Positions 4,619-46,280 of a stretch of 48,268 nucleotides of DNA are shown here, piece after piece. The position numbers and the translations under genes are program-made. Location: contig NZ_BCSR01000020.1 of assembly GCF_001570965.1 (NCBI RefSeq), positions 1 to 48,268 of the forward strand. The letters are read 5' to 3'. Numbering within the stretch: the stretch's first letter is position 1; each line of letters opens with the position of its first letter. The notes beneath the pieces were generated by a model that had not been told where the DNA came from, searched no databases, and saw only the letters and a program-made list of their open reading frames with translations. Source of the stretch: Janibacter corallicola NBRC 107790 (GTDB taxonomy: Bacteria; Actinomycetota; Actinomycetes; Actinomycetales; Dermatophilaceae).

Positions 4619-5358
4619 CACCGGACCTCGGTGATCTCGGGCCCTCGCTCGAAGGGTTTCAGGTCCTGCTCCCCGCTCTCCTGCGGCGCGGGCCGGTTCT
4701 GCTCGGGCATCCGCAGCGGCAGCATCTCCCGCGGCGCACGGGCCTCGTCGCCCCGGACGACGACGGCCGAGCGGACGACCTCGTCGAAGGCGCCGCGGCG
4801 CTCCTCGTCGACGGCCGCCGACCCGGAGTAGACCGCCCGCAGGAACCACCGCGGGCCGTCGACACCGGCGAAGACCGCCGGCGCGAAGACGGTGCGGCCC
4901 TGGGGGCCGGACTGGGCCAGTCGTGTGCGCAGCTCCGTCCCGAAGGGCCCGTCGACCTCTTCGACGGTGCCCCCGCCGCGGTCGATCATTCCGGAGATCT
5001 CCTCGCGGATGTCCTCCCAGAGCCCGCTGGAGCGGGGCGCGGCGAAGACCTGCAACTGCACGGAGCCGTGGTCGTCGGCGACCTGCACCGCGGTCACCTC
5101 GCTGCTGCCCTGATCGATCTCGAGGCGCAGCTCCATGCCGGACGGGGGCGCGATGCGCAGTGCGCCGAGGTCCGCACGGTCCTCGGTGTCGGTGACGTCG
5201 TCGGCGTCACGGGGGCCGTCCCCCTTCGCTGCAGCGGTCTCGGGGGCAGGGTGTGCCTCGCCGTCCTCCACGACGTCCGCCGCGGAGTCCTGCGGCCGCT
5301 CGGCCGCCTCCGTCACGTCCGCCTCGCGGTCGGCCTTCTTCCTGCGCCCGAACATCAT
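4618..5358 (-). CDS. DUF3710 family protein (Rv2696c-like)
   Basis: A 246-residue soluble protein. Residues 1-65 ([12 protein letters not shown] onward) are a charged, low-complexity, acidic leader; residues about 70-225 form the conserved DUF3710 domain ([43 protein letters not shown]). The family is actinobacterial and uncharacterised. The ATG overlaps the dut stop as ATGA, so translation is coupled. The constant linkage to dut and the OB-fold gene suggests a nucleotide or nucleic-acid related role, by context only. Confidence 0.88.
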
Positions 5359-5840
5359 CCTCGTCCTGTCCTGCTCGACTGTGGGCCGAAGCCTCCACTG
5401 GATCCGTGTCCAGTCTCCCCCCGGGTGCTGGAGGGAAGCGAATCAACGACGTGGAAGTCCCCCCGAGCCACCTCCTGCAGCAGCAGCTGGGCGATCCGGT
5501 CACCAGGGTGGATCGTGAAGGTCTCGCACGGGTCGAGGTTGATCAGGTTGACCATGATCTCACCCCGGTAGCCCGCATCCACCGTCCCCGGTGCGTTGAC
5601 CACCGAGATCCCGTGACGCGCGGCCAGCCCGGACCGCGGGTGGACCAGGCCGACCCACCCGGTCGGCAGCGCCAGCGCGATCCCCGTGGGGACCAGCGCC
5701 CGCTCGCCCGGCGCGAGGGTGACCTCCGCGACCGACGTCAGGTCGGCCCCGGCGTCCCCCTCCTTCGCACGGGCGGGCAGGCGCGCATCCCGGTGCAGCA
5801 GCTGCACCGGGACCCGGCGGATGTCCGGGTCCTCACACAC
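5355..5840 (-). CDS. dut: dUTP diphosphatase
   Basis: Trimeric dUTPase hydrolysing dUTP to dUMP and pyrophosphate, keeping uracil out of DNA and feeding dTMP synthesis. All five family motifs are visible in order: [27 protein letters not shown] (catalytic Asp and Tyr), GDRIAQLLL and [10 protein letters not shown]. In the last motif His replaces the usual Phe; mycobacterial Dut also has His there, so this is not a defect. Length (161 residues) is normal. GTG start three bases after the DUF4193 stop; the 3' end overlaps the next gene by ATGA. Confidence 0.96.
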
Positions 5841-5843
5841 GGG

Positions 5844-6143
5844 TCACGCGGCGCACTCTGTGCAGATCGGACCGTTCTTGCCCTCGCTGGCCAGCTGGCT
5901 CCGGTGGTGCACGAGGAAGCAGCTGGTGCAGGTGAACTCGTCCGCCTGGCGCGGCACGACCCGCACCGACATCTCTTCGCCGGACAGATCCGCGCCCGGG
6001 AGCTCGAAGCCCTCGGCCATCTCCGTCTCGTCGACGTCGACGTTCGACGAGGTGGCCTCGTTGCGCCGGGTCTTCAGCTCCTCGATCGAGTCTTCCGACA
6101 GTTCGTCGTCAGTCTTGCGAGGGGCGTCGTAGTCAGTTGCCAT
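5844..6143 (-). CDS. DUF4193 family protein with zinc-ribbon (Rv2699c-like)
   Basis: A 99-residue acidic protein. The N-terminal 60 residues are charged and probably disordered; the C-terminus carries a CxxC (TCTSCFLVHH) and a second CxxC (PICTECAA) about 18 residues later, a zinc-ribbon. DUF4193 is widespread and very conserved in actinobacteria, with no assigned function. It heads the run DUF4193-dut-DUF3710-OB-DUF3159. In M. tuberculosis an opposite-strand DUF3093 gene (Rv2698) sits between it and dut; here the two genes are three bases apart. Confidence 0.92.
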   Translation of the reverse strand: MATDYDAPRKTDDELSEDSIEELKTRRNEATSSNVDVDETEMAEGFELPGADLSGEEMSVRVVPRQADEFTCTSCFLVHHRSQLASEGKNGPICTECAA

Positions 6144-6281
6144 CTCTCCCCTGTCCTAGGTCTTCCGGGCCGGCAATAAAACTGGTGCGCCGTCGTCAAC
6201 GCAGCAGATGCTGATTTTGTGCCCGGCGCCCGGATTGTGCCCCATGAATCTCATCCGCGCCACCCCGGGGCCGTCTGCTGG
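6144..6281. other. Gap upstream of the DUF4193-dut operon, possible promoter
   Basis: The 138 bp between suhB and DUF4193 contain an A/T patch (aataaaa at 6175-6181) that stands out in this GC-rich DNA. On the minus strand a TTGACG (6199-6194) precedes it, but spacing to a TANNNT hexamer is not canonical, so I only say that a promoter for DUF4193-dut probably lies here. No gene was recognised. Confidence 0.3.
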
Positions 6282-7151
6282 TCAGTCCTCCTCGCCGACG
6301 ACCTCGACCGCCCGGCCGATCACGGCCCGCAGGTCGGCCTGGTTGCGCGGTCCCCCGGCCACCGTCCACGCGGTGCCCGGCGGGTCGCCTGCCACGGTCG
6401 TGACGACGGCCCCCGCCTCGGTCGCGACGAGCCAGCCGGCGGCCATGTCCCACGCGCCGAGGCCACGTTCGTAGTAGACGTCGAGGCCACCGTCGGCGAC
6501 GTGGCACAGGTCGAGCGCGGCGCTGCCGATCCGCCGGATGTCCCGCACCGACGGCAGCACCTGCGCGAGCACGGCTCCCTGCCAGGCCCGCCGGTCGGCG
6601 TCGTAGCCGAAGCCGGTCCCACACAGCGAGACGGCCAGCTCCGGGTCGCCGACGGCGAGCGTCTCTGCCCGGCCGTCTCCGACCGCACGGGTGGCGCCGT
6701 GCCCCAGCGCGGCGGCGAAGCGCTCCCCGGTGACGGGGTTGACGACGGCGCCGGCGACGGGCCGCCAGCCCCCTTCGCGCGTCGGGTCCCCGACGACGGC
6801 CGCCACGGACACCGCGTAGGCGGGGATCTCGTAGAGGTAGTTCACGGTGCCGTCGATCGGGTCGACGACCCACGTGATGCCGGAGGAGCCGGCCCGCTGG
6901 CCCTCCTCCTCTCCGTGGAAGGCGTCCTGCGGCCGCAGCTGCGCGAGCCGCGAGCGCAGCAGGTCCTGGCTGCGCTGGTCCATGACGGTGACGATGTCGG
7001 TGCGCGAGCTCTTCGTCCGGCTCACGCCGAGGCCGCTCGGGCGCTCGTCGACGATGAGGGCCGCGGCCTCCACCGCGACCGCCGTCGCGACCGAGCGCAG
7101 CTCGGCGAGGTCGACCCCGTCGGGCAGCTCGACGGGCAAGTCGGTGCTCAT
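6282..7151 (-). CDS. suhB: Inositol monophosphatase family protein (SuhB-like)
   Basis: A 289-residue Mg2+-dependent phosphatase of the inositol-monophosphatase superfamily. Motifs: GEEEG near residue 80 (metal-binding Glu), WVVDPIDGTVNY near 94-105 (metal-binding Asp residues), and AWDMAAGWLVATEAGA near the C-terminus. In actinobacteria such enzymes make inositol for phosphatidylinositol lipids and mycothiol, but may also act on other sugar phosphates. The ATG at 7151 lies one base after the ferrochelatase stop, so both are co-transcribed. Position matches Rv2701c. Confidence 0.92.
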   Translation of the reverse strand: MSTDLPVELPDGVDLAELRSVATAVAVEAAALIVDERPSGLGVSRTKSSRTDIVTVMDQRSQDLLRSRLAQLRPQDAFHGEEEGQRAGSSGITWVVDPIDGTVNYLYEIPAYAVSVAAVVGDPTREGGWRPVAGAVVNPVTGERFAAALGHGATRAVGDGRAETLAVGDPELAVSLCGTGFGYDADRRAWQGAVLAQVLPSVRDIRRIGSAALDLCHVADGGLDVYYERGLGAWDMAAGWLVATEAGAVVTTVAGDPPGTAWTVAGGPRNQADLRAVIGRAVEVVGEED

Positions 7152-7152
7152 C

Positions 7153-8292
7153 TCAGTCCTCTCCGCACAGCGCCGGCTTCGCGGTGCGCAGGTTGGGGCA
7201 GCATCCGGCCGGGCAGATCGACGGGTGGGAGTCCAGGTCACGCCACGTGGCACGCACCGGCGCCTCGCCACGGGCCTCGGCGGCCCGCTCCAGCAGCACG
7301 TCGACGAGGCCGGCGACGAAGGCGGGGTCCTCCCCCGGCGTCGGGACCCGCGTCAGGTCGAGCCCGACCTCGGCCGCGGTCTCCTCGGCCTCGACGTCGA
7401 GGTCGTGCACGACCTCCATGTGGTCCGAGACGAAGCCGATCGGGACGAGCACGACGTGGCGGATCCCCTCGTCGGCCAGCTCGCGCAGCCGGTCGCCCAC
7501 GTCCGGCTCCAGCCACGGGGTGTGCGGTGACCCGGAGCGGGAGCAGAAGGCGAGGCCACCGGGCAGGTCGGTGCCGAGCGCCGTGTCGACCTCGGCGAGG
7601 ACCGCCGCCGCGGCCTCCGCCTGGTCACCGCTGTAGGCGCGCCCGTCACCGTCGCCCGGGCCCGAGGTCTCGTCCATGGCCTCGGGGATCGAGTGGGTGA
7701 CGAAGAGCAGTGCCACGGCACCGCCTCCGACCTGCTCGACGGCCTCCCGCGCGGCGTCGACGGTGACCCGGGCCACCGGCCCCGCGAAACCGGGGTGCTC
7801 CCCGTACGGCCGGACCTTGTCCACGACCAGCTCGGGACGCCCCTCGACGGCCTCCGCGAGGTCCTCGCGGTACTGCCGGCAGGAGGAGTAGCTGCGCCAG
7901 GCGCTCGTCGGCACCGCGAGCACCCGCCTGGCACCGGCATCGGCCAGCTCGCCCAACGCATCGGCGACGAAGGGAGAGGAGTTCCGGTTGCCGAGGACGA
8001 CGGGCAGGGGGCACTCGCGACGGGTCAGCTCGGCGCGCAGCGCCCCGACGAGAGCGCGGTTCAGGGCCGGCAGCGGGCTGATGCCCCCGACGCGGTCGTA
8101 GTGCTGCCCCACCTCCACGAGGCGCTCGTCCGGAACTCCCCGGCCGGCCGTGACCCGGCGCAGGAAGGGCAGGACCTCGTCCGGCCCCTCCGGGCCTCCG
8201 AAGGACTGCAGGAGCACGGCATCATAGGGTCGCAGCAGGTGGTCCTCTGCCGCCTCGGCCGGCTCGGCGTGGTCAGGGGGCTCGATAGGCAT
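7153..8292 (-). CDS. hemH: Ferrochelatase (coproporphyrin ferrochelatase type) with [2Fe-2S] cysteines
   Basis: A 379-residue ferrochelatase inserting Fe2+ into a porphyrin. Recognised by LLQSFGGPEGPDEVLPFL, HYDRVGGISPLPALNRAL, LFVTHSIPEAMD (catalytic His) and FVSDHMEVVHDLDVEA (metal-side His and acids). In actinobacteria this enzyme works in the coproporphyrin-dependent branch, so CpfC is the better functional name. The C-terminus ends in a cysteine cluster (CPAGCCPN, then a late Cys), and an internal Cys lies in SSCRQYRE; together these match the [2Fe-2S] ligands of actinobacterial ferrochelatases. ATG at 8292 chosen because the extra upstream codons are not family-like. First gene of an operon with suhB. 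Confidence 0.94.
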   Translation of the reverse strand: MPIEPPDHAEPAEAAEDHLLRPYDAVLLQSFGGPEGPDEVLPFLRRVTAGRGVPDERLVEVGQHYDRVGGISPLPALNRALVGALRAELTRRECPLPVVLGNRNSSPFVADALGELADAGARRVLAVPTSAWRSYSSCRQYREDLAEAVEGRPELVVDKVRPYGEHPGFAGPVARVTVDAAREAVEQVGGGAVALLFVTHSIPEAMDETSGPGDGDGRAYSGDQAEAAAAVLAEVDTALGTDLPGGLAFCSRSGSPHTPWLEPDVGDRLRELADEGIRHVVLVPIGFVSDHMEVVHDLDVEAEETAAEVGLDLTRVPTPGEDPAFVAGLVDVLLERAAEARGEAPVRATWRDLDSHPSICPAGCCPNLRTAKPALCGED

Positions 8293-8384: not shown

Positions 8385-9566
8385 ATGCGGGAGCTTCGCC
8401 TCATCGGGGTGCACGACGACGGTGGGCACCTCGTGCTGACCGGTGACGCAGGGGACGAGTTCCGACTGCGCATCGACGACCGGCTGCGCGCGGCCGTCCG
8501 CCGCGACCGCCCCAGGGTGGAGCAGCGGGAGATCGACCCGGCGCAGGTGAGCGCGCGGGACGTCCAGGCCCTGATCCGGGCCGGCTCGACGGCCGACGAG
8601 GTCGCCTCGCTGACCGGGTGGGAGCCGGACAAGATCGCCCGCTTCGAGGGGCCGGTCCTCGCCGAGCGCGACCACGTGGCCACCCGGGCGCAGTCCGTAC
8701 GCATGCGCGGGGCCAACCAGGCGGGCGCCCCCGAGACACTCGCCCAGCGCACCGCGGCACGCCTGGCCACCCGCGACGTCGACAGCAGCACGGTCGCCTG
8801 GGACGCCTGCCGGGACTCCGAGGGCCAGTGGACCGTGAGCGCGACCTTCATCGCCGGCGGGCGGGAGCGCGCCGCGGTCTGGTGGTTCGACCAGGCCGGG
8901 ATGAGCGTGGTCGCGAAGAACGACGAGGCCAAGTGGCTCTCCGAGGCCGAGGCCGCCGCGGGCCCGGTGCCCGAGACGACGCACCGGCCGAACGCCGTCT
9001 TCGACGTGGAGGTCGAGGAGGAGCGCGCCGAGCGCGCGAACCGACCGCAGCCGGACGACCTCATCAACTCCATGCGGGAGCACTCCGGGGCCAAGAAGCG
9101 CGGCCGCAGTGGTGCTCGCCGCAAGCCCCGGGCGACGCCGGCCACCGAGGAGGCGCTGCCCTTCGAGACCGACGAGACGCCGCCGGCCGCCCGCGGCACA
9201 CACCCGAAGGACGCCCTCGGGGACGACGAGGCTCCCACGCAGGAGGTCCCGATCACCCCGCCCGCGCCCGAGGACGAGGAGCCGGCGCCCGAGGACTCCC
9301 GGACCGGACACGTCGGTCCCGCGCCCGAGACCGAGGAGTCCGCAGCCACTCCGGCGAAGGGGGAGGATCCGTCCTCCGCGCAGGAGACCACGACCTCCGA
9401 GGTGAAGGGGGACGACGACGCCTCCACGGAGGAGGCGAAGAGCCAGCCCTCGTCGTCGGACCGGTCCTCGTCCAAGAGCAGGGGCAAGGGAAAGGGCAAG
9501 GGCAAGCGTGGCCGGGCCAGCGTCCCGAGCTGGGACGACGTGATGTTCGGCTCCGGGCGCGAGTGA
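8385..9566 (+). CDS. sepH: Cell division protein SepH
   Basis: A 393-residue actinobacterial cell-division factor. Residues 1-75 are the conserved N-terminal domain (MRELRLIGVHDDGGHLVL) and are followed by a helix-turn-helix-like region (ISARDVQALIRAGSTADEVA-type, near 60-90). About 230-360 is a long, acidic Pro/Glu/Ala-rich linker, then a Lys/Gly tract (KSRGKGKGKGKRGR) and the conserved end VPSWDDVMFG. SepH binds FtsZ and promotes ring assembly in Streptomyces. Start: ATG at 8385 behind GAGAGGGA; a GTG lies one codon upstream. Divergent from ferrochelatase, convergent with tdk (4-bp gap). Confidence 0.93.
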   Translation: MRELRLIGVHDDGGHLVLTGDAGDEFRLRIDDRLRAAVRRDRPRVEQREIDPAQVSARDVQALIRAGSTADEVASLTGWEPDKIARFEGPVLAERDHVATRAQSVRMRGANQAGAPETLAQRTAARLATRDVDSSTVAWDACRDSEGQWTVSATFIAGGRERAAVWWFDQAGMSVVAKNDEAKWLSEAEAAAGPVPETTHRPNAVFDVEVEEERAERANRPQPDDLINSMREHSGAKKRGRSGARRKPRATPATEEALPFETDETPPAARGTHPKDALGDDEAPTQEVPITPPAPEDEEPAPEDSRTGHVGPAPETEESAATPAKGEDPSSAQETTTSEVKGDDDASTEEAKSQPSSSDRSSSKSRGKGKGKGKRGRASVPSWDDVMFGSGRE

Positions 9567-10275: not shown

Positions 10276-10276
10276 G

Positions 10277-11434
10277 TCAGTCCGTCGCCGGCAGGGTCAG
10301 CCACGGGATGGCCAGCTCGTCCTCGGTGATCGACCCGTGCACGCCGAGCAGGGAGAGGATCAGCGGGCGGTGGCGGCGGCTGTCGACGACCGCCACCGGG
10401 CCGGTCATCGCCGTGATGACGTCTCCGAGCCGGGCGCGCACCCGGTCGCTCACCGGACCGAGCCAACCGCGATCGATCGCCTCCTCGCGGGAGACCACGA
10501 GGGCGTCCTCGCCCAGCCGGCCGCGCCAGGTGGCCAGGACGTCCTCGAGGGCCCCGTCGACGACGTGCAGCTGGAGGCCGCGCGGCTCACCGGAGACCTG
10601 TCGCACGCCGGAGTCCAGCTCGGCGTCCTCTGCCAGGTCGGTCCGGGCGTCCAGCGGCACGTCGACCATGCCGTGGTCGGCGGTGATGTGCAGCGAGGTG
10701 TCCGCGGGCAGCAGGCCCGCCAGCCGGGCCAGCTCGGCGTCCACGGACTCCAGCTCCTCGACCCACTGCCAGGAGTCGCAGCCGTGCATGTGGCCGACCT
10801 TGTCCACGTCGCCCCAGTACAGGTGGACCAGGGCCCGCTCGTCGCGCCGCACCGCGGCGACCGTCTCGTCCACGCGTGCCGCGAGGGACTCGGCGGCCAC
10901 GAACCGACCCCCGCGAAGGGCGGCATTCGTCAGCCCGGAGCCGTCGAAGTAGCCGGGACCGATCCGGGTCACCGCCACCCCGGCGTCCGAGGCGGCCTCG
11001 AAGACCGTCGGGAGGGGCTGCCAGCGCCGCGGGTCCGGCCCGTCCTGCCAGGACAGCTCGTTGAAGACCGTGTCCGTGTCGGGGTCGTAGGCCTCGTAGC
11101 CGGTCAGCCCGTGGGTGCCGGCGAGGGTGCCGGTGCCGAAGCTGCCCATCGACGTGGCCGTCGTGGAGGGGAAGCCGCAGGCCAGCGTCGCCCCGGCGTC
11201 CTGCTCCTGCAGCAGGCGGCGGAGGAAGGGGGCGTGCCCTCCCCTGCGCTCGAGGAGCCGGGAGCCGAGCCCGTCGACGAGCACGACCACGCTGCGGCGG
11301 GCCGACCGCAAGGCGCGGTCGCCCCCCTTCGCCAGCCCCGGGACACCGATGCTCGTGGCAACCGCCGGCAGCAGCCGGTCCAGTCGGGGGCCGGCGAGCA
11401 GGGAACCGTGGGAGTGCCCCGCCACCGGGCTCAT
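10277..11434 (-). CDS. Alkaline-phosphatase superfamily nucleotide pyrophosphatase/phosphodiesterase
   Basis: A 385-residue member of the alkaline-phosphatase superfamily, NPP-like. VVVLVDGLGSRLL supplies the first metal-binding Asp, GFPSTTATSMGSFGTG the nucleophilic Thr, WGDVDKVGHMHG an Asp and His pair, and ITADHGMVDVP the final Asp-His. The substrate is unknown; nucleotide or phosphodiester cleavage is the family expectation. The ATG at 11434 overlaps the DUF5998 stop as ATGA; a much longer open frame upstream lies over other genes and is rejected. DUF5998 next to this phosphodiesterase is a common actinobacterial pair as I recall. Confidence 0.9.
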   Translation of the reverse strand: MSPVAGHSHGSLLAGPRLDRLLPAVATSIGVPGLAKGGDRALRSARRSVVVLVDGLGSRLLERRGGHAPFLRRLLQEQDAGATLACGFPSTTATSMGSFGTGTLAGTHGLTGYEAYDPDTDTVFNELSWQDGPDPRRWQPLPTVFEAASDAGVAVTRIGPGYFDGSGLTNAALRGGRFVAAESLAARVDETVAAVRRDERALVHLYWGDVDKVGHMHGCDSWQWVEELESVDAELARLAGLLPADTSLHITADHGMVDVPLDARTDLAEDAELDSGVRQVSGEPRGLQLHVVDGALEDVLATWRGRLGEDALVVSREEAIDRGWLGPVSDRVRARLGDVITAMTGPVAVVDSRRHRPLILSLLGVHGSITEDELAIPWLTLPATD

Positions 11435-12036
11435 CGCCCGATGCTCGAGGAGAGGTCGCGGGCGAACTCGATGGCCCGCTCGAGAGCCCCCCGCCCCTCG
11501 GCCTCGGCGCTGATGCGCAGTGCGATGTCGTCGGCGGTGATCGTGCCCTCGTAGCCGTGGTCGCCCCCTTCGCACTCGGGGTCGGCGCACTGGCCGGGCA
11601 GCAGGTCGACCCGGCTGACCGCGCCCCACCCGATGGTCAGCGTCAGCTCTCGGCCGAGGGAACCGGGGACGTAGTTGGCCGGGTCGGCGGCGACGTGGCT
11701 GAGCATGACGCCCCGGACGGCGCTGAGGGGGATGCACTCGGTCGTCGCGGCCGCCACCTCGCGGGGCGCCCCGTCGCTCTCGGTGAAGTCGTCCGCGTGC
11801 GCGACCACGAGGCGGGTGCCGGTCCGCACGAAGGCGGTGATGTGGCGCCGGACCCGGTCCTGGTCGAAGGTCGTCTCCTGGTGCACGAGGTGGCTGTGCA
11901 CGGCCTCGGGGCCCACTGCCGCCTTGATGACGTCCACGACGAGGGCTGGGTAGTAGCCGGCCTGCTCGATGTCGTCGGTGAGGGCGTCGGGCAGGGTGAT
12001 CGCGTCGAGGTCGACTGGAACGGACATGCCCGCCAT
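11431..12036 (-). CDS. DUF5998 family protein
   Basis: A 201-residue soluble protein matching the actinobacterial DUF5998 family: LPDALTDDIEQAGYYPALV near the start, HSHLVHQETTFDQDRVRRH, then TRLVVAHADDF and a Cys-containing GQCADPECEGGDHGYEG segment near the C-terminus. Function unknown. It follows the acetyltransferase by six bases and overlaps the phosphodiesterase by ATGA. ATG at 12036 is preceded by GAGG at suitable spacing; an in-frame ATG at 12027 is the alternative. Confidence 0.88.
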   Translation of the reverse strand: MAGMSVPVDLDAITLPDALTDDIEQAGYYPALVVDVIKAAVGPEAVHSHLVHQETTFDQDRVRRHITAFVRTGTRLVVAHADDFTESDGAPREVAAATTECIPLSAVRGVMLSHVAADPANYVPGSLGRELTLTIGWGAVSRVDLLPGQCADPECEGGDHGYEGTITADDIALRISAEAEGRGALERAIEFARDLSSSIGR

Positions 12037-16095: not shown

Positions 16096-16664
16096 CCGTC
16101 ACCCTCCAACAGCTGCGCGAGCAGGCGCCTCGCCTCGAACAGGTCCCGCTTGACGGTACCCGGCGCCCGGTCGATCTGCTTCGCGATCGTCGCCACCGGC
16201 AGGTCGGCGAAGTAGTAGAGCATGACGCACAGCCGCAGCCGGTCCGGCAACGAGCGCACGGCCTCCCGCACGGTGACCCGGGTCGTGACGTCGACGAAGC
16301 CGTCGAGGTCGGCGCCCCCTTCGTGGCGGCCGTAGGCCTCGGCCTCCCTGCCCCGCTTGCGCCAGTGGTCGCGCACGAGGTTGCCGGTGACCGTGTACAA
16401 CCACGCCCGGGGCTCGGTCACGCCCCCGAACTGCGAGAGCAGCCGTACGAAGGCCTCGGTGGCCAGGTCGTGGGCGATGTCCGGGTCACCGACCAGTCGA
16501 GTCGCCCAGCCGGCCAGTCGCCCGTAGTGGGCGCGGTAGATCTCCTGGACGGCAGCCTCGTCCGCGGTGTCCGCTCGTGCCACCACTCGCCTCCCCGACA
16601 GGGGTACCAGCGCTACCGTCGTCACATCCTCATCGACGCCGCAGACCCGGTCCCGGTTGGCCAT
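16092..16664 (-). CDS. ECF RNA polymerase sigma factor (sigma-70 family)
   Basis: A 190-residue extracytoplasmic-function sigma factor. Region 2 runs from about residue 40 (YRAHYGRLAGWATRLVGD, AHDLATEAFVRLL, PRAWLYTVTGNLVRDHWRKR) and region 4 from about 130 (VREAVRSLPDRLRLCVMLYYFADLP, then the helix-turn-helix ATIAKQIDRAPGTVKRDLFEA). The spacer is short, as is usual for ECF factors. The true start is uncertain: ATG at 16664 or GTG at 16625; neither has a convincing Shine-Dalgarno. It is coupled to the membrane propeller downstream, the likely signal input. It lies divergent from parC. Confidence 0.9.
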   Translation of the reverse strand: MANRDRVCGVDEDVTTVALVPLSGRRVVARADTADEAAVQEIYRAHYGRLAGWATRLVGDPDIAHDLATEAFVRLLSQFGGVTEPRAWLYTVTGNLVRDHWRKRGREAEAYGRHEGGADLDGFVDVTTRVTVREAVRSLPDRLRLCVMLYYFADLPVATIAKQIDRAPGTVKRDLFEARRLLAQLLEGDG

Positions 16665-16809: not shown

Positions 16810-19245
16810 GTGGCCCGTCGCTCCGCTCCCGCTCCCCGACCGGACGTCCCCGAGACGATCGTCGACATCGACGTCGCGGACGAGATGCGCAACGCCTACC
16901 TCGAGTACAGCTACTCGGTGATCCATGCCCGGGCCCTGCCGGACGCACGTGACGGGCTGAAGCCGGTGCACCGCCGGATCCTGTACTCGATGAGCGAGAT
17001 GGGGCTGCGCCCCGAGCGAGGCCACGTGAAGTCCTCCCGCGTCGTCGGCGAGGTCATGGGCAAGTTCCACCCGCACGGCGACAGCGCGATCTACGACGCA
17101 CTCGTGCGGATGGCCCAGCCCTTCTCGATGCGCCTGCCCCTCGTCGACGGCCACGGCAACTTCGGCTCGCTCGACGACGGACCGGCCGCGAGCCGCTACA
17201 CCGAGGCGCGGATGGCGCCGGCCGCGCTGCTCATGGTGACGGGCCTCGACGAGGACACGGTCCCCTTCGTCCCGAACTACGACGACCAGCTCACCCAGCC
17301 GGACGTCCTGCCGGCGGCCTACCCGAACCTGCTCGTCAACGGCACGACCGGCATCGCGGTGGGGATGTCGACGAACATGCCGCCGCACAACCTCGTCGAG
17401 GTCATCGGGGCCACCCGGCACCTGCTGAAGCACCCGGACGCGAGCCTGGACGACCTGATGAAGTTCGTCCCCGGGCCCGATCTGCCCGGCGGGGGGCGCG
17501 TCGTCGGCCTCGAGGGCATCCGGGAGGCCTACCTCACCGGCCGCGGCAGCTTCCGCACCCGGGCCACCACCCGGATCGAGAAGGTCTCGCCCCGCCGCAA
17601 GGGGATCATCGTCACCGAGCTGCCCTACCTCGTCGGCCCCGAGAAGGTCATCGAGAAGATCAAGGACGCGGTGCAGTCCAAGAAGCTGCAGGGCATCGCC
17701 GACGTCAAGGACCTCACCGACCGCCAGTCCGGGCTGCAGCTCGTCATCGAGATCAAGAACGGCTTCAACCCAGAGGCGGTCCTCGAGAAGCTCTACCGGC
17801 TGACCCCGATGGAGGACTCCTTCGGGATCAACAACGTCGCCCTCGTCGACGGGCGGCCGCAGGCGATGGGCCTGAAGCAGATGCTCACCGTCTACATCGA
17901 CTTCCGGCGCGACGTCGTGCGCCGACGCAGCGAGTACCGGCTGGCCAAGCGGCGGGAGCGGTTGCACCTCGTCGAGGGGCTGCTCATCGCCATCCTCGAC
18001 ATCGACGAGGTCATCCAGCTGATCCGCTCCAGCGACGACGCGGCCACTGCCCGCACCCGGCTACAGGAGGTCTTCGACCTCTCCGAGGCCCAGGCCGGCT
18101 ACATCCTGGACCTGCAGCTGCGGCGCCTGACGAAGTTCTCCCGGATCGAGCTGGAGACCGAGCAGCAGGAGCTGCTCGCCGCCATCGCCGAGCTCGAGGA
18201 GATCCTCGGCGACGAGTCGGTCCTCACCAGGCTCATCTCCCGCGAGCTGGCCGACGTCGCGAAGAAGCACGGTGACCCCCGACGCACCGTCCTGCTGGAG
18301 TCCGCCGGACAGCCGGCCGCGGAGGCCACCCCGTTGGAGGTCCCCGACGATCCGTGCTGGGTGATCCTCTCCAGCACCGGGCTGCTGGCCCGCACCGCGG
18401 ACGCCGAGCCCCTCCCGCGCGAAGGGGGCCGGGCCAAGCACGACGCCGTGGTCGCCGCGGTGGCGACCACCGCGCGCGGCGAGGTGGCCGTCGTGACCTC
18501 CCACGGCCGGATGATCCGCCTCAGCGCCCTCGAGCTCCCTGCGCTGCCGGCCTCCTCCAGCGCCCCGAACCTCTCCGGCGGCGCGCCGCTCGCGGCCTAC
18601 GTCGACCTGGCCGACGGGGAGATGCCACTGACGCTGGCCTCCCTCTCCCCCGACACTCCCGGCCTCGCCCTCGGCACGGCCCACGGCGTGGTCAAGCGGG
18701 TCAACACCGACTACCCCAAGGGCCACGACTGGGAGGCGATCTCCCTCAAGGACGGCGACCGGGTGGTCGGGGCGGCCCAGCTGCGCACCGGGCACGAGGA
18801 ACTGGTCATGATCACCGACCAGGCCCAGCTGCTGCACTTCTCCGCCGAAGCGGTCCGCCCGCAGGGACGCACCGCCGGTGGCGTGAGCGGCATCCGCGTC
18901 CCGGAGGGCGCCCGGGTGCTCTTCTTCGGCGTCGTCGACCCCGACGTGGACAACATCGTCGTGACCGTCTCCGGCTCCTCGGACTCGCTGCCCGGGACCG
19001 ACGCGGGCGCGTGGAAGGTCACCCCCTTCGCGGAGTACCCGAGCAAGGGCCGCGGCACCGGTGGCGTGCGGGCGCACCGCTTCCTCAAGGGTGAGGACAC
19101 GCTGCTCTTCGCCTGGGCCGGCCGGGCCGGGGCCCGCGCGGCCCAGCCCAACGGCGTCGCCGTGACCCTCCCGGAGCCCGAGGGGCGCCGCGACGGCTCC
19201 GGTGAGCCGGCTCGCGCCGTGATCGGCGGCATCGGCTCTCTCTGA
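16810..19245 (+). CDS. parC: DNA topoisomerase IV subunit A (ParC / GyrA family)
   Basis: An 811-residue type IIA topoisomerase breakage-reunion subunit. Conserved features: [18 protein letters not shown], the quinolone-resistance segment [17 protein letters not shown] (residues 87-103, wild-type Ser92 and Asp96), and the active-site Tyr130 in [11 protein letters not shown]. The C-terminal part (about 490 onward) is a diverged propeller. It lacks a GyrA-box sequence as far as I can see and resembles actinobacterial ParC, so topoisomerase IV (decatenation) is preferred to gyrase. GTG at 16810 was chosen because AGGAGA (16795-16800) precedes it and the product begins MARRS, like other family members; an in-frame ATG at 16765 has no such site. 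Confidence 0.92.
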
Positions 19246-23022: not shown

Positions 23023-23244
23023 GTCGGTGACCGGTTCCTATCCGTGGGCTGACTGCTGGTGGTCACTCGCAGGGTAGTCCGCGCTCCCGGGGGCGCCCGG
23101 GAGGCGGACCCGGCGGTGGTGTCGCGAAGGGAGCGCATTGTGTCCTCGGTCACGACTCGCGCGAGACCATGCACCGAGGGAAGTTCACGACGTGTTTGAC
23201 TGTTGTCCCGGACGTCCACGAACCACGGAGGAAAAGAGGCAACC

Positions 23245-27705: not shown

Positions 27706-27795
27706 CCCAGCACGTTCGCCCCCGCAGGAGGGGACGAAGGGGGCTCTGCTGCCCCGGCTGCCGAGTGCTCTGCAGGACTTTCACCCCCTTCGCAG

Positions 27796-32103: not shown

Positions 32104-32462
32104 CAGTCCTGGGTCCGCAGCAGCAGCCACCGGGCGGCGCGATCGGCCGCCGCCGGATCCCGTCCGGCGCCGGTGTCCACCCCGAGGTCGTAGACCCCGG
32201 GCACCTCCGAACGGCCCGGGCTGGCGCTGACCCGCCAGACCTGCCTGGCCAGTGACACCTCGTCCAGCGGCCGCGTGGCCGCCTCGCGCCACCAGTCGCG
32301 CCGCTCCTGCCAGTGGTCGACGACCTCGGTCACCCGGTAGAGCCGCCCGCGCCAGAGGAACTGCTCCGGCGCATCCGGGGGCTGTCCCCCTTCGCCTGCA
32401 CACTGCTGCTGCGCGGTCTGCGCCACCCGCACCTCGATGTCCTCCTCGACGAGCCGGACCAT
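32103..32462 (-). CDS. DUF6504 family protein
   Basis: A 119-residue protein with the sequence FLWRGRLYRVTEVVDHWQER followed by two Trp-rich stretches (RRDWWREAA; LARQVWRVSAS) and the C-terminal ARWLLLRTQD. The family is found with actinobacterial translesion polymerases and is uncharacterised. ATG at 32462 is preceded by GGGAG at good spacing; a start at 32483 is possible but lacks support. First gene of the SOS operon. Confidence 0.85.
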   Translation of the reverse strand: MVRLVEEDIEVRVAQTAQQQCAGEGGQPPDAPEQFLWRGRLYRVTEVVDHWQERRDWWREAATRPLDEVSLARQVWRVSASPGRSEVPGVYDLGVDTGAGRDPAAADRAARWLLLRTQD

Positions 32463-33699: not shown

Positions 33700-33736
33700 G
33701 GCGAAGGGGGCCGCCGCTCTCCGCAGCGGTGCCCGG

Positions 33737-35458: not shown

Positions 35459-35483
35459 CCCACGAAGGGGGCCGGTCCAGACT

Positions 35484-37382
35484 GTGGCAGTGACCACCTC
35501 GTCCCACCTGCTCGTCGGCCACCTGGTCGACGGCCGGTACCGCGTGCTCAGCCATCTCGCGGACGGCGGGATGGCCACGGTCCTGCTCGCCACCGACACG
35601 CGGCTGGACCGCGAGGTGGCGCTGAAGGTCATGCGCGAGGACCTGGCCGCGGACGAGACCTTCGTCTCCCGCTTCCGGCGCGAGGCGCGCTCCGCCGCCC
35701 GCCTCAGCCACCCCAACGTCGTGCAGGTGCACGACCAGGGCGAGGACGACGGCCGGATCTTCCTCGCGATGGAGTACGTGGCCGGTGAGACCCTCCGGGA
35801 ACGCATCGGCACCGAGGGGGCGCTCACACCGCGGGAGGCCCTCGACCTCCTCGCGCCGGTGCTGACCGGCCTGGCGGTGGCCCACGACGCCGGCTACATC
35901 CACCGGGACGTCAAGCCGGAGAACGTCCTGATCTCCGAGGAGGGCCGGGTCAAGGTCGCCGACTTCGGTCTGGCCCGGGCCGTCACCTCCCAGACGCACA
36001 CCGCCGACGAGGGCGTCCTCTACGGCACCGTCGCCTACCTCTCCCCCGAGCAGGTCGAGCGTGGCATCGCCGATGCTCGCAGCGACGTCTACGCGGCGGG
36101 CCTGGTGCTCTTCGAGCTGCTCACCGGCACCCGTGCGCTGCAGGGTGATTCGCCGATCCACATCGCCTTCCAGCACGTGCACGCGGACATCCCGGCCCCC
36201 TCGGAGCGGGTGCCCGGCCTGCCGCCGGAGCTGGACCACCTCGTGGCCGTGGCCACCCACCGCGACCCGGACCAGCGTCCCCGCGACGCCGGCGAGTACC
36301 TCGCGGAGGTCCGTGCGGTGCGCCGGGCGCTCACGCCCGCCCAGCTGGACCGCCGACCCGCCGGGGCCCCACACCCCGCGGGTGCCGCCGCGCCCGGCAA
36401 CGCCGCCACGGTCGCCCACGCGCGCCCGGCCCCGACCCGCTCACTCACCGCACCGGCGCACCCCGGTGCCACCGGGGGCACGCTCCCTCCGGCCTCGTCC
36501 TCGCGGGGCCGGCTGGTCGCACTGCTGCTGGCACTGCTGCTCGTCCTCGGCGCCGGGTACTGGTGGTACGCCACCGCAGGGCCGGGCGGCGACGTCACCG
36601 TCCCGGACACCGCCGGCCAGACCCGCCAGCAGGCGGAGCAGACCCTCCGGGAGCACGACCTGGGACTCGAGGCGAAGCGGGCCTACGACGAGGACGTCCC
36701 CAAGGGGCGGGTGATCACCTCGAGCCCGCCGGCGCGCACCGAGGTCGGCCGGGGCGACGAGCTGACCGTCGTCTTCTCCCGCGGCCCGGAGCGGTACGCG
36801 GTGCCGGACCTCGCGGGCACGTCGCGCCAGCGCGCCGAGTCCCTCCTCGAGCGGCGCCACCTCCGGGTCGACGGGACCACCGGACGCTACGACGAGACCG
36901 TCCGCAAGGGCAGGGTCGTCGCGACGGAACCGGACGCGGGTACCGAGCTGAAGCGCGACTCCGGCATCGACCTCGTCCTCTCCAAGGGTCCCGAGCCCGT
37001 CGACGTGCCCTCGGTGACCGGCGAGAGGCTGGCAGCGGCCACGACCACCCTCGAGGAGGCCGGCTTCGAGGTCGACCGCAGCGCGGACGCCTACTCCTCC
37101 GACGTGCCGAAGGGGGCGATCACCGACCAGTCGCCGGCCGACGGGACGCTCCCGCGCGGTGGGACCGTCACCGTCACCGTCTCCAAGGGGCCGGAGATGG
37201 TCACCGTGCCGAAGGTCGAGGGGATGAGCCTCGCGGAGGCCACCCGGGCCCTGGAGTCGGCCGGCTTCGAGGTCACCGTCCAGAAGTTCCTCGGCGCCCC
37301 GATGGACGAGGTGCGAGCCTCCCGACCCGGTGGCGGCGAACGCGCCGAGAAGGGCTCGACCGTGACGATCCTCGTCGTGTGA
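35484..37382 (+). CDS. pknL: Stk1-family Ser/Thr protein kinase with four PASTA domains
   Basis: A 632-residue membrane kinase. Kinase domain about 18-275: Gly-rich LADGGMATVLL, Lys48 in VALKVM, HRDVKPEN at 140-147, DFG at 160-162, SPEQ in place of APE. Then a Pro/Ala linker, one transmembrane helix (about 334-350) and four extracellular PASTA repeats (about 361-632; VTVPDTAG, YAVPDLAG, VDVPSVTG, VTVPKVEG) that bind peptidoglycan or muropeptides. Position next to an Rv2175c-like gene and class II DAHP synthase matches pknL (Rv2176), but mycobacterial PknL has no PASTA domains, so the symbol is positional. GTG at 35484; another GTG at 35490. Convergent with aroG, 3-bp gap. Confidence 0.9.
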   Translation: MAVTTSSHLLVGHLVDGRYRVLSHLADGGMATVLLATDTRLDREVALKVMREDLAADETFVSRFRREARSAARLSHPNVVQVHDQGEDDGRIFLAMEYVAGETLRERIGTEGALTPREALDLLAPVLTGLAVAHDAGYIHRDVKPENVLISEEGRVKVADFGLARAVTSQTHTADEGVLYGTVAYLSPEQVERGIADARSDVYAAGLVLFELLTGTRALQGDSPIHIAFQHVHADIPAPSERVPGLPPELDHLVAVATHRDPDQRPRDAGEYLAEVRAVRRALTPAQLDRRPAGAPHPAGAAAPGNAATVAHARPAPTRSLTAPAHPGATGGTLPPASSSRGRLVALLLALLLVLGAGYWWYATAGPGGDVTVPDTAGQTRQQAEQTLREHDLGLEAKRAYDEDVPKGRVITSSPPARTEVGRGDELTVVFSRGPERYAVPDLAGTSRQRAESLLERRHLRVDGTTGRYDETVRKGRVVATEPDAGTELKRDSGIDLVLSKGPEPVDVPSVTGERLAAATTTLEEAGFEVDRSADAYSSDVPKGAITDQSPADGTLPRGGTVTVTVSKGPEMVTVPKVEGMSLAEATRALESAGFEVTVQKFLGAPMDEVRASRPGGGERAEKGSTVTILVV

Positions 37383-39492: not shown

Positions 39493-40718
39493 GAGGGAGA
39501 GCCTGCCACGCGTCGGGCCGGGGCGGTGAGCGTCACGGTCGTGCCCCCGCCGGCGGGGGTGCGCCACGTCGCGTCACCGCCCAGGTCGAGCATGCGCCCG
39601 CGGATCGAGCTGCTCGCCCCGAGACGCCCCTCCTCCGCGGCCTGCACGAGCCGGTCCGAGGGCATCCCACGGCCGTTGTCGCGCACGACCACCTGGACCG
39701 CCTCGTCCGTGCGGTCCACGAGCACCCAGGCCCGCGCGCCCTCACCGGCGTGCAGCGCCACGTTGTCCAGGGCCGCGGAGACGGCCGCGCGGATCTCACT
39801 GGCGACGCCCTCGGAGAGGCGTACCGGCCCCGCCGGCAGGATGATCTCGACACCGTCGCGACGCAGCCGGCCCAGCAGGTCGCCGAGGTCGACCTCCTGA
39901 TCGTGCCCGCCGGGTCCGGCGCCGGTCCGCCCGTCGGCCCCGCGCCCGGCGCCCCCTTCGGGCGGCCCATGGGCCTCGGAGGAGAGCCGGGAGATCAGGC
40001 TGCGCAGCGAGCGCTCCTGGTCCGCCGCGAGGTCGGCGAGCGCCGTGCCCTCGCCCCCCATCTGGCGACCGCGACGGTTGATCAGGGCCAGGGCCTGCAG
40101 CACGTTGTCGTGCACCTCCCGACCGATCCGGTCCCGCTCGGCGCTGCGCTCGCTGATGGCGATGGCCCGCTCGAGACGTCGTTGGCTCTCCGTGGCCAGC
40201 TGCACGGCCAACCCGACGAGGCCACCGAGCAGGTAGAGCAGGATGATGTTGTGCCAGGTCAGCTGGGTCTCGTGCTGGGTCTGGATGATGTTGGTCGTGG
40301 CGATGACGGTCGCCGCGAGGACCCCGCCCCGGACCCCCGACAGCAGCGCGGCGGCCATCACCGGGGCACCGGCCCACACGCCGGGGACCGTGGAGATCCC
40401 CGCGGTCACCTCGGCCGGTTCGTAGACGATGTTCGTCAGGAAGATGCCGGTGACCGCGATGGCCAGCTCGATGACGATCGCCAGTCGCGTCGGACGGGGC
40501 CGCAGCGGGGCCACGACCGACCAGCCGACGATGACGAAGCCGTAGGCGATGATCGGCCACCAGCTGATGACGTGCTCGCGGTGGACGAAGGCGATGAGCG
40601 CCGCCGCGTAGCCGATCGCGACGAAACGGTACAGCGCCAACCCTCTGCCCGCCGCGCTGTCCATGAGCGGCGAGGGGTGGTAGTGCCTCTGGTCGGCGCG
40701 ACCGACGGGGAGGTCCAC
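39489..40718 (-). CDS. MacS-type sensor histidine kinase
   Basis: A 409-residue kinase with about five to six hydrophobic segments in the first 180 residues and no large extracellular sensor domain. The H-box is ERDRIGREVHDNVLQAL (His203), of the HisKA_3 type; the HATPase domain follows (SAALDNVALHA, VVVRDNGRGMPSD, GTTVTLT). GTG directly follows the acyltransferase stop (TGA then GTG). Partner is the LuxR-type regulator downstream. MacS family assigned by layout and similarity; the signal is unknown. Confidence 0.9.
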   Translation of the reverse strand: MDLPVGRADQRHYHPSPLMDSAAGRGLALYRFVAIGYAAALIAFVHREHVISWWPIIAYGFVIVGWSVVAPLRPRPTRLAIVIELAIAVTGIFLTNIVYEPAEVTAGISTVPGVWAGAPVMAAALLSGVRGGVLAATVIATTNIIQTQHETQLTWHNIILLYLLGGLVGLAVQLATESQRRLERAIAISERSAERDRIGREVHDNVLQALALINRRGRQMGGEGTALADLAADQERSLRSLISRLSSEAHGPPEGGAGRGADGRTGAGPGGHDQEVDLGDLLGRLRRDGVEIILPAGPVRLSEGVASEIRAAVSAALDNVALHAGEGARAWVLVDRTDEAVQVVVRDNGRGMPSDRLVQAAEEGRLGASSSIRGRMLDLGGDATWRTPAGGGTTVTLTAPARRVAGSPS

Positions 40719-41639: not shown

Positions 41640-42260
41640 ATGGCCGAGGCACAGCAGCCCGACGAGCGTGACGTCGACGCGATCTTCGAGTCGATCGTTG
41701 CCCGTTGGGAGGACGAGGCACTCGACCCGCAGCAGGGACCCACCGAGCCGGATGACGAAGGGGGCGCCCCGCCGCCCCACCGACACGGGCCGACGAATCC
41801 TGCGCCGCGCGGTCGTGGGGCGACCAATCCACCCCCGAGCCGTCGCAGCGCGACGAACCCGCCCTGGGGGGCCCGCCACCCGGAGGCGGAGGAGGAGGGC
41901 AAGGGGGACGTCTCCCCCTTCGCCCACGACGGCTCGGTGCCGTGGCGGGTGGACCCGACGAACTCGGTCGCCGACCTGCTCGGCCAGCCGGAGCACCCCG
42001 GCACGGCCGAGGACGACGAGGGCTTCACTCCCCCGCCCACCCGGCCGCTGCCGCCGCTGAGCGACCGGCTCTTCTGGGGCGCGCTCGTCGGGCTCGTCCT
42101 GGGCCCGCTCGGCCTGGTCTGGCTCGTCTTCCTCCGGCCGGAGGCCGGCTTCCTCACCAAGGTGGTCGTCTTCGGGCTGATCGTCGGCGGTTTCACCTGC
42201 CTGGTGCTGCGCCAGCCGACCCACCGCGGCGACGACCCGGACGACGGCGCACGGGTCTAG
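41640..42260 (+). CDS. Hypothetical membrane protein with proline-rich cytosolic domain
   Basis: A 206-residue protein I do not recognise. The first 25 residues contain a conserved-looking MAEAQQPDERDVDAIFESIV helix; about 40-130 is Pro/Gly/Arg-rich and low in complexity (repeats of TNP and GxxTNPP); the C-terminal part has two hydrophobic helices (LFWGALVGLVLGPLGLVWLVF and FLTKVVVFGLIVGGFTCLVL). ATG at 41640 is preceded by GGAG. Divergent from plsC; its TAG shares CTAG with the opposing ROK gene stop. Function unknown. Confidence 0.75.
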   Translation: MAEAQQPDERDVDAIFESIVARWEDEALDPQQGPTEPDDEGGAPPPHRHGPTNPAPRGRGATNPPPSRRSATNPPWGARHPEAEEEGKGDVSPFAHDGSVPWRVDPTNSVADLLGQPEHPGTAEDDEGFTPPPTRPLPPLSDRLFWGALVGLVLGPLGLVWLVFLRPEAGFLTKVVVFGLIVGGFTCLVLRQPTHRGDDPDDGARV

Positions 42261-44546: not shown

Positions 44547-45447
44547 GCGGCCACACCGCCTCGTCGGGGGACATCGCCACGGTCAGGACGCCGCCGGCGA
44601 CGCCGGCCCGCTCGACCGTGCACCGCCGCAGGACCGAGGGCAGCAGGACCCGGCGGGAGCGACCCGCGCACTGCAGCAGCAGCTCGTCGTCGTGGCGGAC
44701 CAGCTCCAGGTCGCCCGCCCGGATCCCCGGCAGCGCGACCCGCAGCAACCAGACGTCCTCGCTGCGCTCCACGAGGGGCCGTGCCGTTGCCTCGACCTGG
44801 GGCAGGTACTCGATCCCGGCCGCTCCGGGCGGGTGGACGGCGGTGAGGGTCCGGCCGCGCAGCGCCAGGAGCACCTCGGCGTCGGCCCGGCGGGCGGACC
44901 CGACCGGCCCGGCGGGGGCCGCCAGGTGCAGCGCGGTGCCGGACGCGTCACTGAGCACCTCGTCGAGGTCCGCCAGCAACTCACCACCCTCACGAAGGGC
45001 GGTGAGCAGCGTGCTCGTGGGGGCGGGGAGGGACCCGACTCCCGGGGGCGCGACGAGCGTCTCCCACCGGGCCACCACGGGGACGAAGGCCTCCATCGTC
45101 CGTGCGATGCGCTGCGGCAGGTCGAGGAGCCGCCCGACCTCCAGCGGCACCGCGGCGACGAGGTCCACCCCCTGGGCCCTCGCCTGGTCCACCTCGCGGG
45201 CCAGCCGCAGCAGGGTGGGCAGCTCGGGGGGCAGGACCCGGGCGAGCAGGTCGGCGATCACCGGCGCCGGCAGGTCCAGCGCGGCGAAGAGGCGGTCCAG
45301 GTGGGCGCGGACGGCGACCACGACGGGGTCCCGGCCCTCCCCCGAGGAGGCGTGCACGACCGGACCCGCGGACTGCAGGCCGGCGCTGATCCGGGTGGTG
45401 ACGGCCTCGCTGTGCTCGCCGCCGCCGATGACGAGATGAACTCCCAC
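44539..45447 (-). CDS. Degenerate ArsA-like ATPase with HSP20-like C-terminal domain
   Basis: A 302-residue protein corresponding to Rv2184c in position. The N-terminus, where ArsA has a GKGGVGKT P-loop, reads HLVIGGGEHSEAVTTRIS, so the Walker A lysine is missing and the protein is probably not an ATPase. The C-terminal domain (about 225-302: VWLLRVALPGIRAGDLELVRH, LQCAGRSRRVLLPSVLRRC) is the HSP20-like domain found at the end of actinobacterial ArsA proteins. Probably a scaffold or binding protein. GTG start 4 bp after the SRPBCC stop. Confidence 0.78.
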   Translation of the reverse strand: MGVHLVIGGGEHSEAVTTRISAGLQSAGPVVHASSGEGRDPVVVAVRAHLDRLFAALDLPAPVIADLLARVLPPELPTLLRLAREVDQARAQGVDLVAAVPLEVGRLLDLPQRIARTMEAFVPVVARWETLVAPPGVGSLPAPTSTLLTALREGGELLADLDEVLSDASGTALHLAAPAGPVGSARRADAEVLLALRGRTLTAVHPPGAAGIEYLPQVEATARPLVERSEDVWLLRVALPGIRAGDLELVRHDDELLLQCAGRSRRVLLPSVLRRCTVERAGVAGGVLTVAMSPDEAVWPRG

Positions 45448-45451
45448 GGGG

Positions 45452-45895
45452 TCAGGCTTCGGCGCGGTTCTTCAGGTCACGCAGCGCCGTGTCGACGATG
45501 ACCTTCTCCGCCTTGCGCTTGAGCATCCCCAGCATGGGCACCTTGAGGTCGACCGTCAGCTCGTAGACGACCTCGGTCCCCGCGTCGGACTCGGTCAGCG
45601 TGTAGGAGCCGTCCATCGCCTTGAGCATGGTGGCCTCGACGAGCTGCCAGGAGGCGACACCGGCACCGGACTCCTCGACGTCCCAGGTGTACTCGAGGGT
45701 GTAGGTGTCCTTGATCGCCCCGGCGTCCAGGGAGAAGCGGGCCTGGTCGGGCCACCCGTCCCCGTCCTCGGTGAGGATCTCGACGCGGGTGATCTCCTTG
45801 GCCCACTCCGGGTAGGCCTCGAGGTCGGCGATGATGTCCAGGACGTCCCCGCAGGGAGCGTCCACGACGATGCTGGAGCGCGTGCTGTCGGCCAT
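45452..45895 (-). CDS. SRPBCC family protein (Rv2185c-like)
   Basis: A 147-residue START-like hydrophobic-ligand-binding protein. The opening MADSTRSSIVVDAPCGDVLDII and AYPEWAKEI are the polyketide-cyclase/SRPBCC signature; later strands DGSYTLTESDAGTEVVYEL and LKVPMLGMLKRKAE complete the helix-grip. Ligand unknown; lipid or isoprenoid binding is usual. ATG at 45895 chosen because the sequence from there is family-like. Next to a second SRPBCC gene and fadD15, suggesting lipid metabolism. Confidence 0.88.
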   Translation of the reverse strand: MADSTRSSIVVDAPCGDVLDIIADLEAYPEWAKEITRVEILTEDGDGWPDQARFSLDAGAIKDTYTLEYTWDVEESGAGVASWQLVEATMLKAMDGSYTLTESDAGTEVVYELTVDLKVPMLGMLKRKAEKVIVDTALRDLKNRAEA

Positions 45896-45905
45896 GGCGG
45901 GCAGA

Positions 45906-46280
45906 CTACAGGCCACCGCCTCGTGGCCGCCGACCCTCGAGGTGGTCCTTGATCACATGCAGGCCGCCCTTCCACCGGCGACGGTGCTGCTGCACCCAGC
46001 GCCGACCTCCCCGGCGCTGCCTCCCGTGGAGGAAGTGGTGGACGATGGTGCCGCCCGAGGCCTCCTCCAGCCAGATCTCGAGGCGCCCCTCGACGTCGCC
46101 GGCGGCGCGCCAGCGCACCCCCTTCGTCCCCCGGTCCTGGAGGACCTCCCGCTGCAGGCCCGGCCAGAGCCGGTCGAGCAGGCCCGGCTCGTCCAGCGCG
46201 GCACGCACCGTCGCGGGCCGGGCGCGCACGAAGGTCTCGTCCACGACGTCGACGGTGCGGGGGCGGAGGGACACCGGCAC
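45906..46280 (-). CDS. SRPBCC family protein (Rv2186c-like)
   Basis: A 124-residue small START-like protein: TVDVVDETFVRARPATVRAAL, GVRWRAAGDVEGRLEIWLEEASG, with a basic C-terminus (RRWKGGLHVIKDHLEG). First gene of the minus-strand run to the ROK kinases. Start is GTG at 46280 or GTG at 46274; a CATAAT hexamer at 46283-46288 (minus) sits directly upstream and would place transcription near the start codon, so the mRNA may be leaderless. Function unknown. Confidence 0.75.
   Translation of the reverse strand: MPVSLRPRTVDVVDETFVRARPATVRAALDEPGLLDRLWPGLQREVLQDRGTKGVRWRAAGDVEGRLEIWLEEASGGTIVHHFLHGRQRRGGRRWVQQHRRRWKGGLHVIKDHLEGRRPRGGGL

Follow-up and report, generated by a model that had tools for sequence, protein, structure and literature searches.

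What maintains the nine-letter word CGAAGGGGG at such density in the chromosome of the actinobacterium Janibacter corallicola NBRC 107790, where a contig stretch of 48,268 nucleotides (NZ_BCSR01000020.1, positions 1 to 48,268; this whole stretch is the window of what follows) carries 23 copies on both strands, within genes and between them? An earlier note on this DNA, made from the letters alone, had proposed a chromosome-wide signal, whether Chi-like, KOPS-like (FtsK orienting polar sequence) or a nucleoid or methylation site, or else codon context or a mutational bias. The closest match is an option absent from that list, the DNA uptake sequences, known as uptake signal sequences (USS) in Pasteurellaceae and DNA uptake sequences (DUS) in Neisseriaceae. 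The reading tentatively preferred here, at slightly less than even confidence, is that CGAAGGGRG (the R-form of the word, which covers CGAAGGGGG and its minor variant CGAAGGGAG) together with its flanks serves the Janibacter clade as a self-recognition word across the genome, working like USS or DUS. It is favored because the pattern shares most of the descriptive marks of those sequences, as given in the parts of PMC1626085 and PMC3630211 drawn on here. CGAAGGGGG is not filed outright as a USS or DUS, preferential uptake being predicted only.

Abundance and distribution of the word

Recounting the window recovers every coordinate and strand that had been listed by hand, and CGAAGGGGG is its top 9-mer, with 23 copies against 1.38 expected under an order-2 Markov model. 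For 100 dinucleotide shuffles of the window the mean is 0.86 copies and the maximum 6. Gene positions throughout come from a simple codon-usage caller of open reading frames (ORFs) made for this analysis rather than from a published one; with it the reported split of 14 genic copies on the coding strand and 5 opposite is reproduced, and the remaining 4 are intergenic. The earlier note had looked to a Markov model of order 6 or 7 to show whether the excess is real. Taken to the letter, and within the window only, the excess then vanishes and the refuting condition set by that note applies, as a maximal-order model built on the window alone expects 22.5 copies where 23 are found, but this is because the 8-mers inside CGAAGGGGG nearly all belong to copies of CGAAGGGGG, and such a test is blind to words this long. 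Scanned against Rfam and for tRNA genes, the window gave no matches.

The whole genome (G000; 3,107,415 bases in 92 contigs, of which the window's is C20) has 1,666 copies, 833 on each strand or 0.54 per kb, and the word read backwards, as a control, has 14 + 8 = 22. A sample of 430,561 bases of the same genome, window included, has 251 copies against 12.7 expected under the order-2 model (stretches L001-L008, which overlap others, are excluded from counts). USS and DUS, too, are described as numbering hundreds to thousands in a genome, at close to one per kb.

This abundance is confined to a narrow clade. In a first set of 58 genomes, counts are 797-1,860 for all 16 of Janibacter (g1, the genus in the GTDB sense, own genome included) and do not exceed 72 for the remaining 42. 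Sampled across the family, 16 of 16 Janibacter genomes and 3 of 3 from a second genus, g45, are high (797-1,939) and none of 167 others, from 51 genera, exceeds 80, so that 2 of the 53 genera sampled are dense in the word. An order-wide sample of 297 genomes from 94 genera has high counts only in 4 genomes of these same two genera, the other 293 having at most 101. Even the lowest carrier, G001 with 797 copies, has 29 against 2.5 expected in 120 kb. Two side observations belong with these genomes. In stretches L143-L148 of G001, AACTGCCCG (22 against 0.32 expected), TTTATCGGG and related words are also sharply repeated, perhaps as an array. The g45 genome G210 has a 20 kb stretch (L258; 66.7% GC) that encodes a TrwC relaxase and an Eco57I-type methylase and contains a single copy of CGAAGGGGG against about 9 expected from genome density.

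Strand polarity

A G-rich, chromosome-wide word resembles KOPS and the architecture imparting sequences (AIMS), and the earlier note had considered a KOPS-like role, that of a polar architecture signal read by FtsK. Polarity can be assessed in the complete congener G008, whose sequence begins with dnaA (read from its protein), taking the terminus to lie half-way round and leaving out the presumed terminus stretch L119 with its 14 copies. There 139 of 258 copies of CGAAGGGGG are co-oriented with replication (confidence interval 0.48-0.60), and the word is therefore not KOPS. The test sees polarity where it is present, because in the same stretches (L109-L128) the octamer CGGGGGAG, chosen after the fact as the most polar, gives 86 leading to 7 lagging copies, in 19 of the 20 stretches; it is likely the KOPS-type word of Janibacter. 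That CGAAGGGGG itself serves FtsK is hardly credible. Its strand counts are homogeneous among 19 stretches of the source genome (p 0.97) and 20 of G008 (p 0.42), L017 (2.3 kb) being omitted, and the balanced strands in these stretches rule out an apparent run of plus-strand copies near 160-218 kb. USS and DUS likewise have no chromosomal orientation bias. The replichore figure of 139 in 258 also argues against a classical Chi, and leaves a Chi-like role, to which we return, weakened but standing.

Copies within and between genes

In favor of codon context or a mutational bias, genic copies are mostly in phases 1 and 2 and avoid phase 0 (12 of 185 in G000). Shuffling synonymous codons, however, reduces the genic copies from 185 to about 27 in G000 and from 182 to about 24 in G008; of the CGAAGGGAG copies, 2.4 out of 49 and 2 out of 57 remain. 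Density is also higher between genes: 66 of 251 copies in the G000 sample, with 7.8% intergenic DNA, and 90 of 272 in G008, with 9.2%, are intergenic, a 3-4 fold enrichment. Codon context is refuted because of this intergenic excess and the shuffling result, and a mutational bias is hard to square with the extended motif described below and with occurrence in only 2 of 53 family genera; we consider it very improbable that either makes the excess. What the earlier note had right is that the signal is chromosome-wide and at the level of DNA rather than of a protein or operon, for the excess withstands synonymous shuffling and peaks between genes. A preference for non-coding DNA with many copies in genes is a further mark of USS and DUS seen in both G000 and G008. 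CGAAGGGGA, in 4-fold excess, was rejected as part of the motif; none of its 35 copies is between genes, and it is therefore read as codon context.

Genic copies of CGAAGGGGG are 110 sense and 75 antisense in G000, and 96 and 86 in G008. Those of CGAAGGGRG lean slightly to gene ends (110, 91, 68, 84 and 96 by quintile, p 0.03), and by single orientation the lean is not significant (p 0.31 and 0.07). A bias toward gene ends has been described for pasteurellacean uptake sequences in the portion of PMC2346458 used here.

Exactness, flanks and inverted pairs

Perfect copies exceed expectation far more than near misses do. G000 has 251 where about 13 are expected (+238) and G008 has 272 where 13.4 are expected (+259), while all 27 one-mismatch words together come to 403 against 323 (+80) and 334 against 315 (+19). 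In raw counts one-mismatch words outnumber perfect copies (403 to 251 and 334 to 272), neighbors being common by chance in GC-rich DNA. A predominance of perfect over singly mismatched copies is described for USS and DUS, and here it shows as excess over expectation but not in raw numbers. Orthologs in congeners give a similar impression: over all reciprocal pairs, which are not independent of one another, 41% of 896 aligned copies are identical compared with 26% of 21,482 9-mers of the same composition, and the one-mismatch state is halved, at 16% for copies and 31% for the control 9-mers. Copies thus tend to be either intact or lost, suggesting that some factor reads for the exact word.

The word also has flanks. 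Around 517 unpaired copies of CGAAGGGRG, scored against a background matched for codon phase, G is preferred at -3 and -2, a purine at -1, C from +13 through +20 (z 3.5-6.9) and T at +22 (z 6.9), with weaker preferences for C at -14, -11 and +35 also above threshold. The extended motif then reads GGR-CGAAGGGRG with a C-rich tract downstream (+13 to +20), and its longer form may be written as GGRCGAAGGGRG plus C tract. At z 3, neither the GGR nor the C tract is seen around a pair of control words taken from these genomes (93 and 91 sites). Avoidance of G at +10 was rejected as part of the motif, being the same around the control word CGA[CG]GGG[AG]G. The C fraction at +13 to +20 is 0.41-0.48 in five carrier sets, compared with 0.33 for the control word and, in 48 copies from outside the clade, 0.38; the T fraction at +22 is 0.25 in G000, 0.32 in G008 and 0.15 both in 14 stretches of other congeners and in g45. 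A strict 23-mer consensus has only 4-8 matches per genome in 4 genomes, and the flank is therefore a preference, not a fixed sequence.

Close pairs of copies commonly face one another. Of those less than 60 bp apart, 20 of 24 converge in G000, 22 of 28 in G008 and 5 of 6 in g45, a frequent layout being a stop codon, a few bases, CGAAGGGGG, a loop and CCCCCTTCG. Among inverted pairs touching intergenic DNA, 11 of 16 in G000 and 16 of 22 in G008 are at most 40 nt past a stop, compared with 35% and 29% of random intergenic positions. Close opposite pairs that are often terminators are a mark of USS and DUS, and the pairing and the placement after stops are both present here, the terminator role being putative. 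Could the word simply be a stem component of transcription terminators? Three of four inverted-pair examples fold far more stably than shuffles (z -5.2 to -7.6). Yet 185 of the 251 copies in the source-genome sample are inside genes, only 20 inverted pairs occur there, and the window's own pair is no stabler than its shuffles. As the genic excess withstands synonymous shuffling, terminators are refuted as the sole cause, and that they account for the word on their own is very unlikely indeed.

Competence and recombination genes

In the source genome comEA, named from its sequence, adjoins comEC. ComEC is found in 57 of the 58 genomes, and TadE, whose type of pilin gene the source genome has too, likewise in 57 of 58. 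The competence machinery that accompanies USS and DUS is therefore represented, though not specifically in carriers.

RecC is found in 15 of 16 Janibacter genomes, the exception, G015, being 79% complete; among 20 other genera of the family, 7 have it. The presence of RecBCD or AddAB that goes with Chi is thus represented by RecC, the one component sought. A search for portal proteins found no prophage in the 16 genomes.

The main rival to an uptake-type word is accordingly a Chi-like one: the RecBCD of the clade may read CGAAGGGRG in the RecC channel and so turn from degrading DNA to loading RecA. G-richness is common to the known Chi words. Like E. coli Chi, GCTGGTGG, the Janibacter word is short, G-rich and in excess in genomes with a RecC gene. 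From a provisional list of 12 E. coli RecC channel sites, one letter of which disagreed with the E. coli protein, one position, 64, is R in three Janibacter sequences and T or S in RecC of four other genera. The TrwC-relaxase stretch of g45, 20 kb with 1 copy against about 9, can also be placed on this side. Unlike E. coli Chi, the word is non-polar (139 of 258 on the leading strand), denser (one per 1.9 kb rather than one per 5 kb), in excess between genes and frequent in inverted pairs, and we know of this intergenic and inverted-pair habit only for uptake sequences. The RecC-bearing genomes G021, G024, G025, G026, G028, G034 and G035 are without the word, though their RecC may read another. 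On balance a Chi-like role seems unlikely, if far from negligible; should it hold, the clade would have a Chi-like word denser and less polar than that of E. coli.

Marginally more doubtful still is that the word is the site of some other clade-specific DNA protein, such as a nucleoid protein, a methyltransferase or a self-marking defence system, its density being kept by selection. Abundance, non-polarity, the extended motif and clade restriction would all fit, but such a site alone leaves the preference for exact matches and the inverted pairs unexplained.

Other dense words in relatives

Related genera have dense words of their own. Copies of CGGCATNCG number 1,233-3,550 in 9 of the 20 other family genera and 1,032 in a single genome from a different family, where reversed controls have 216-633; in the 16 Janibacter genomes they number 175-298, with reversed controls of 98-192. 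Loci bearing CGGCATNCG include L155, L160, L164 and L169-L175. Its variable seventh letter is genus-specific, being A in G022 (118 against 1.4), T in G027 (35 against 1.3) and C in G031 (44 against 4.0), and this genus-specific excess withstands synonymous shuffling. CGGCATACG occurs 23 times in 20 kb sampled from G022, where 0.23 is expected. CGGCATNCG is thus a candidate dialect, a possible counterpart in sister genera of the Janibacter word. Samples of G016, G020, G024, G028 and G034 (40-100 kb each) and of G035 showed nothing in similar excess. Absence of RecC and CGGCATNCG at a level of at least 1,000 copies show an association of p 0.07 in Fisher's test over 20 family genera, which is not used as support.

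Two further observations come from outside these genera. Loci of Microbacterium and Agromyces (L036, L041, L043, L047, L061 and L103) have CGGCATCCG at some 7-11 times its expected count, and in 22 kb of Propionibacterium cyclohexanicum (L087) CTCCACCCC occurs 11 times against 0.32 expected.

A wider proposal, which we regard as possible and hold with less confidence than that for Janibacter itself, is of a family with genus-level uptake dialects: CGAAGGGRG in Janibacter and g45, and CGGCATACG, CGGCATTCG or CGGCATCCG elsewhere. These would have an origin independent of the words in Neisseria and Haemophilus and might be read by a receptor linked to the Tad pilus or to ComEA. We know of no uptake sequences in Gram-positive bacteria, and such dialects would be the first.

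An uptake-type word weighed

For an uptake-type word the sequence of events would be as follows. Some component of the competence machinery that binds DNA would favor molecules bearing the word, and fragments from kin that carry it would be taken up and recombined preferentially. Copies made by mutation would thus spread and build up on either strand, with the greatest freedom between genes; they would also do so within stem-loops, where one arm would force the other to match. Uptake bias would then be the driving force of CGAAGGGGG accumulation. Tad pili may take part as in Micrococcus luteus, also an actinobacterium, which transforms via Flp/Tad pili according to the parts of PMC4322843 and PMC6370729 used; a word search of PMC4322843 finds no mention of uptake sequences.

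Comparison with the Pasteurellaceae USS (AAGTGCGGT and ACAAGCGGT types) is close, going by the portions of PMC1626085 and PMC2346458 consulted: a 9-bp core, many hundreds of copies, no strand bias, an excess in non-coding DNA, close opposite pairs, exact copies favored (here relative to expectation), a 3' flank motif and variants among subclades. In contrast to USS, the flank of CGAAGGGGG is C-rich instead of AT-rich and its spacing is random, and the host is a Gram-positive actinobacterium with no type IV pilin found in 15 of 16 congeners, for which uptake is a prediction. With the DUS dialects of Neisseriaceae, as far as covered by the part of PMC3630211 used, it shares a dense clade-specific word, variants in related species or genera, and inverted pairs tied to terminators. 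DUS dialects differ, however, in all sharing CTG with few base differences, whereas CGAAGGGGG and CGGCATNCG have no obvious common core, and in having ComP, which was not found for this clade. According to a 2006 statement in PMC1626085, uptake sequences are known from Pasteurellaceae and Neisseriaceae but from none of the other bacteria that transform naturally. Among the open-access matches listed there was no uptake-type word in Gram-positives, and those listed for the literal CGAAGGGGG do not, by title or opening of the abstract, present it as a genomic word. Another lineage-specific and very abundant word is the highly iterated palindrome HIP1 of cyanobacteria. Its function is unknown, and, unlike CGAAGGGGG, it is palindromic.

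Several points weigh against an uptake role. ComEC and TadE are about equally common in word-free genera and therefore do not discriminate. No type IV pilin (N_methyl) signature occurs in 15 of 16 Janibacter genomes, so that no ComP-like receptor was found, other receptors not having been sought. Among the competence papers listed none names Janibacter, and they hold no evidence of uptake or transformation for the genus. Any strong drive at the DNA level could also yield stem-loop pairs, and CGGCATNCG has no clear stem-loop habit, its close pairs converging in 2 of 8 cases in G022 and 2 of 5 in G031. The window's own pair at 27735-27792 folds, yet not clearly better than shuffles (z -1.06). 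A cruder first ortholog test, of the window against each congener (181 copies, with random 9-mers of the same genes as controls and pairs again non-independent), had given little extra conservation, 28.7% identical compared with 24.0%. Finally, the regularity associated with USS and DUS is missing, spacing in one 160 kb stretch being random (coefficient of variation 0.98; random 5-95% range 0.83-1.17).

Copies in the window

The 14 sense copies of CGAAGGGGG are distributed along the window. On the minus strand are those at 5220..5228 (gene 4618-5358), 6769..6777 (gene 6282-7151), 11323..11331 (gene 10277-11434), 11564..11572 (gene 11431-12036), 16315..16323 (gene 16092-16586), 22241..22249 (gyrase B/topoisomerase IV B-like gene 20893-23022), 24153..24161 (ORF 24049-24459), 32386..32394 (ORF 32103-32462), 39952..39960 (gene 39489-40718) and 46118..46126 (ORF 45906-46280). 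On the plus strand are those at 9355..9363 (gene 8385-9566), 18420..18428 (topoisomerase IV/gyrase A-like gene 16810-19245), 37108..37116 (protein kinase (PASTA) gene 35490-37382) and 41756..41764 (gene 41640-42260).

Antisense copies are at 19022..19030 (-) in the same topoisomerase IV/gyrase A-like gene, at 25497..25505 (+) in the impB/mucB/samB-type polymerase gene 24568-25839(-), at 27946..27954 (+) and 31134..31142 (+) in gene 27866-31606(-), and at 41914..41922 (-) in gene 41640-42260(+). Between genes, 27735..27743 (+) and 27784..27792 (-) are the left and right arms of the inverted pair, whose fold has the motif at the base of the stem, and 33702..33710 (+) and 35463..35471 (+) come right after the stops of genes 32614-33699(+) and 34292-35458(+). 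The variant CGAAGGGAG is at 2722..2730 (-), 7968..7976 (+), 23125..23133 (+) and 26871..26879 (-).

Implications

If CGAAGGGGG is an uptake-type word, DNA self-recognition would have evolved convergently in actinobacteria, and competence is to be predicted for Janibacter and its kin. The word would hinder the passage of genes from one genus to another, and it would also provide a practical tag for transforming Janibacter and its relatives.

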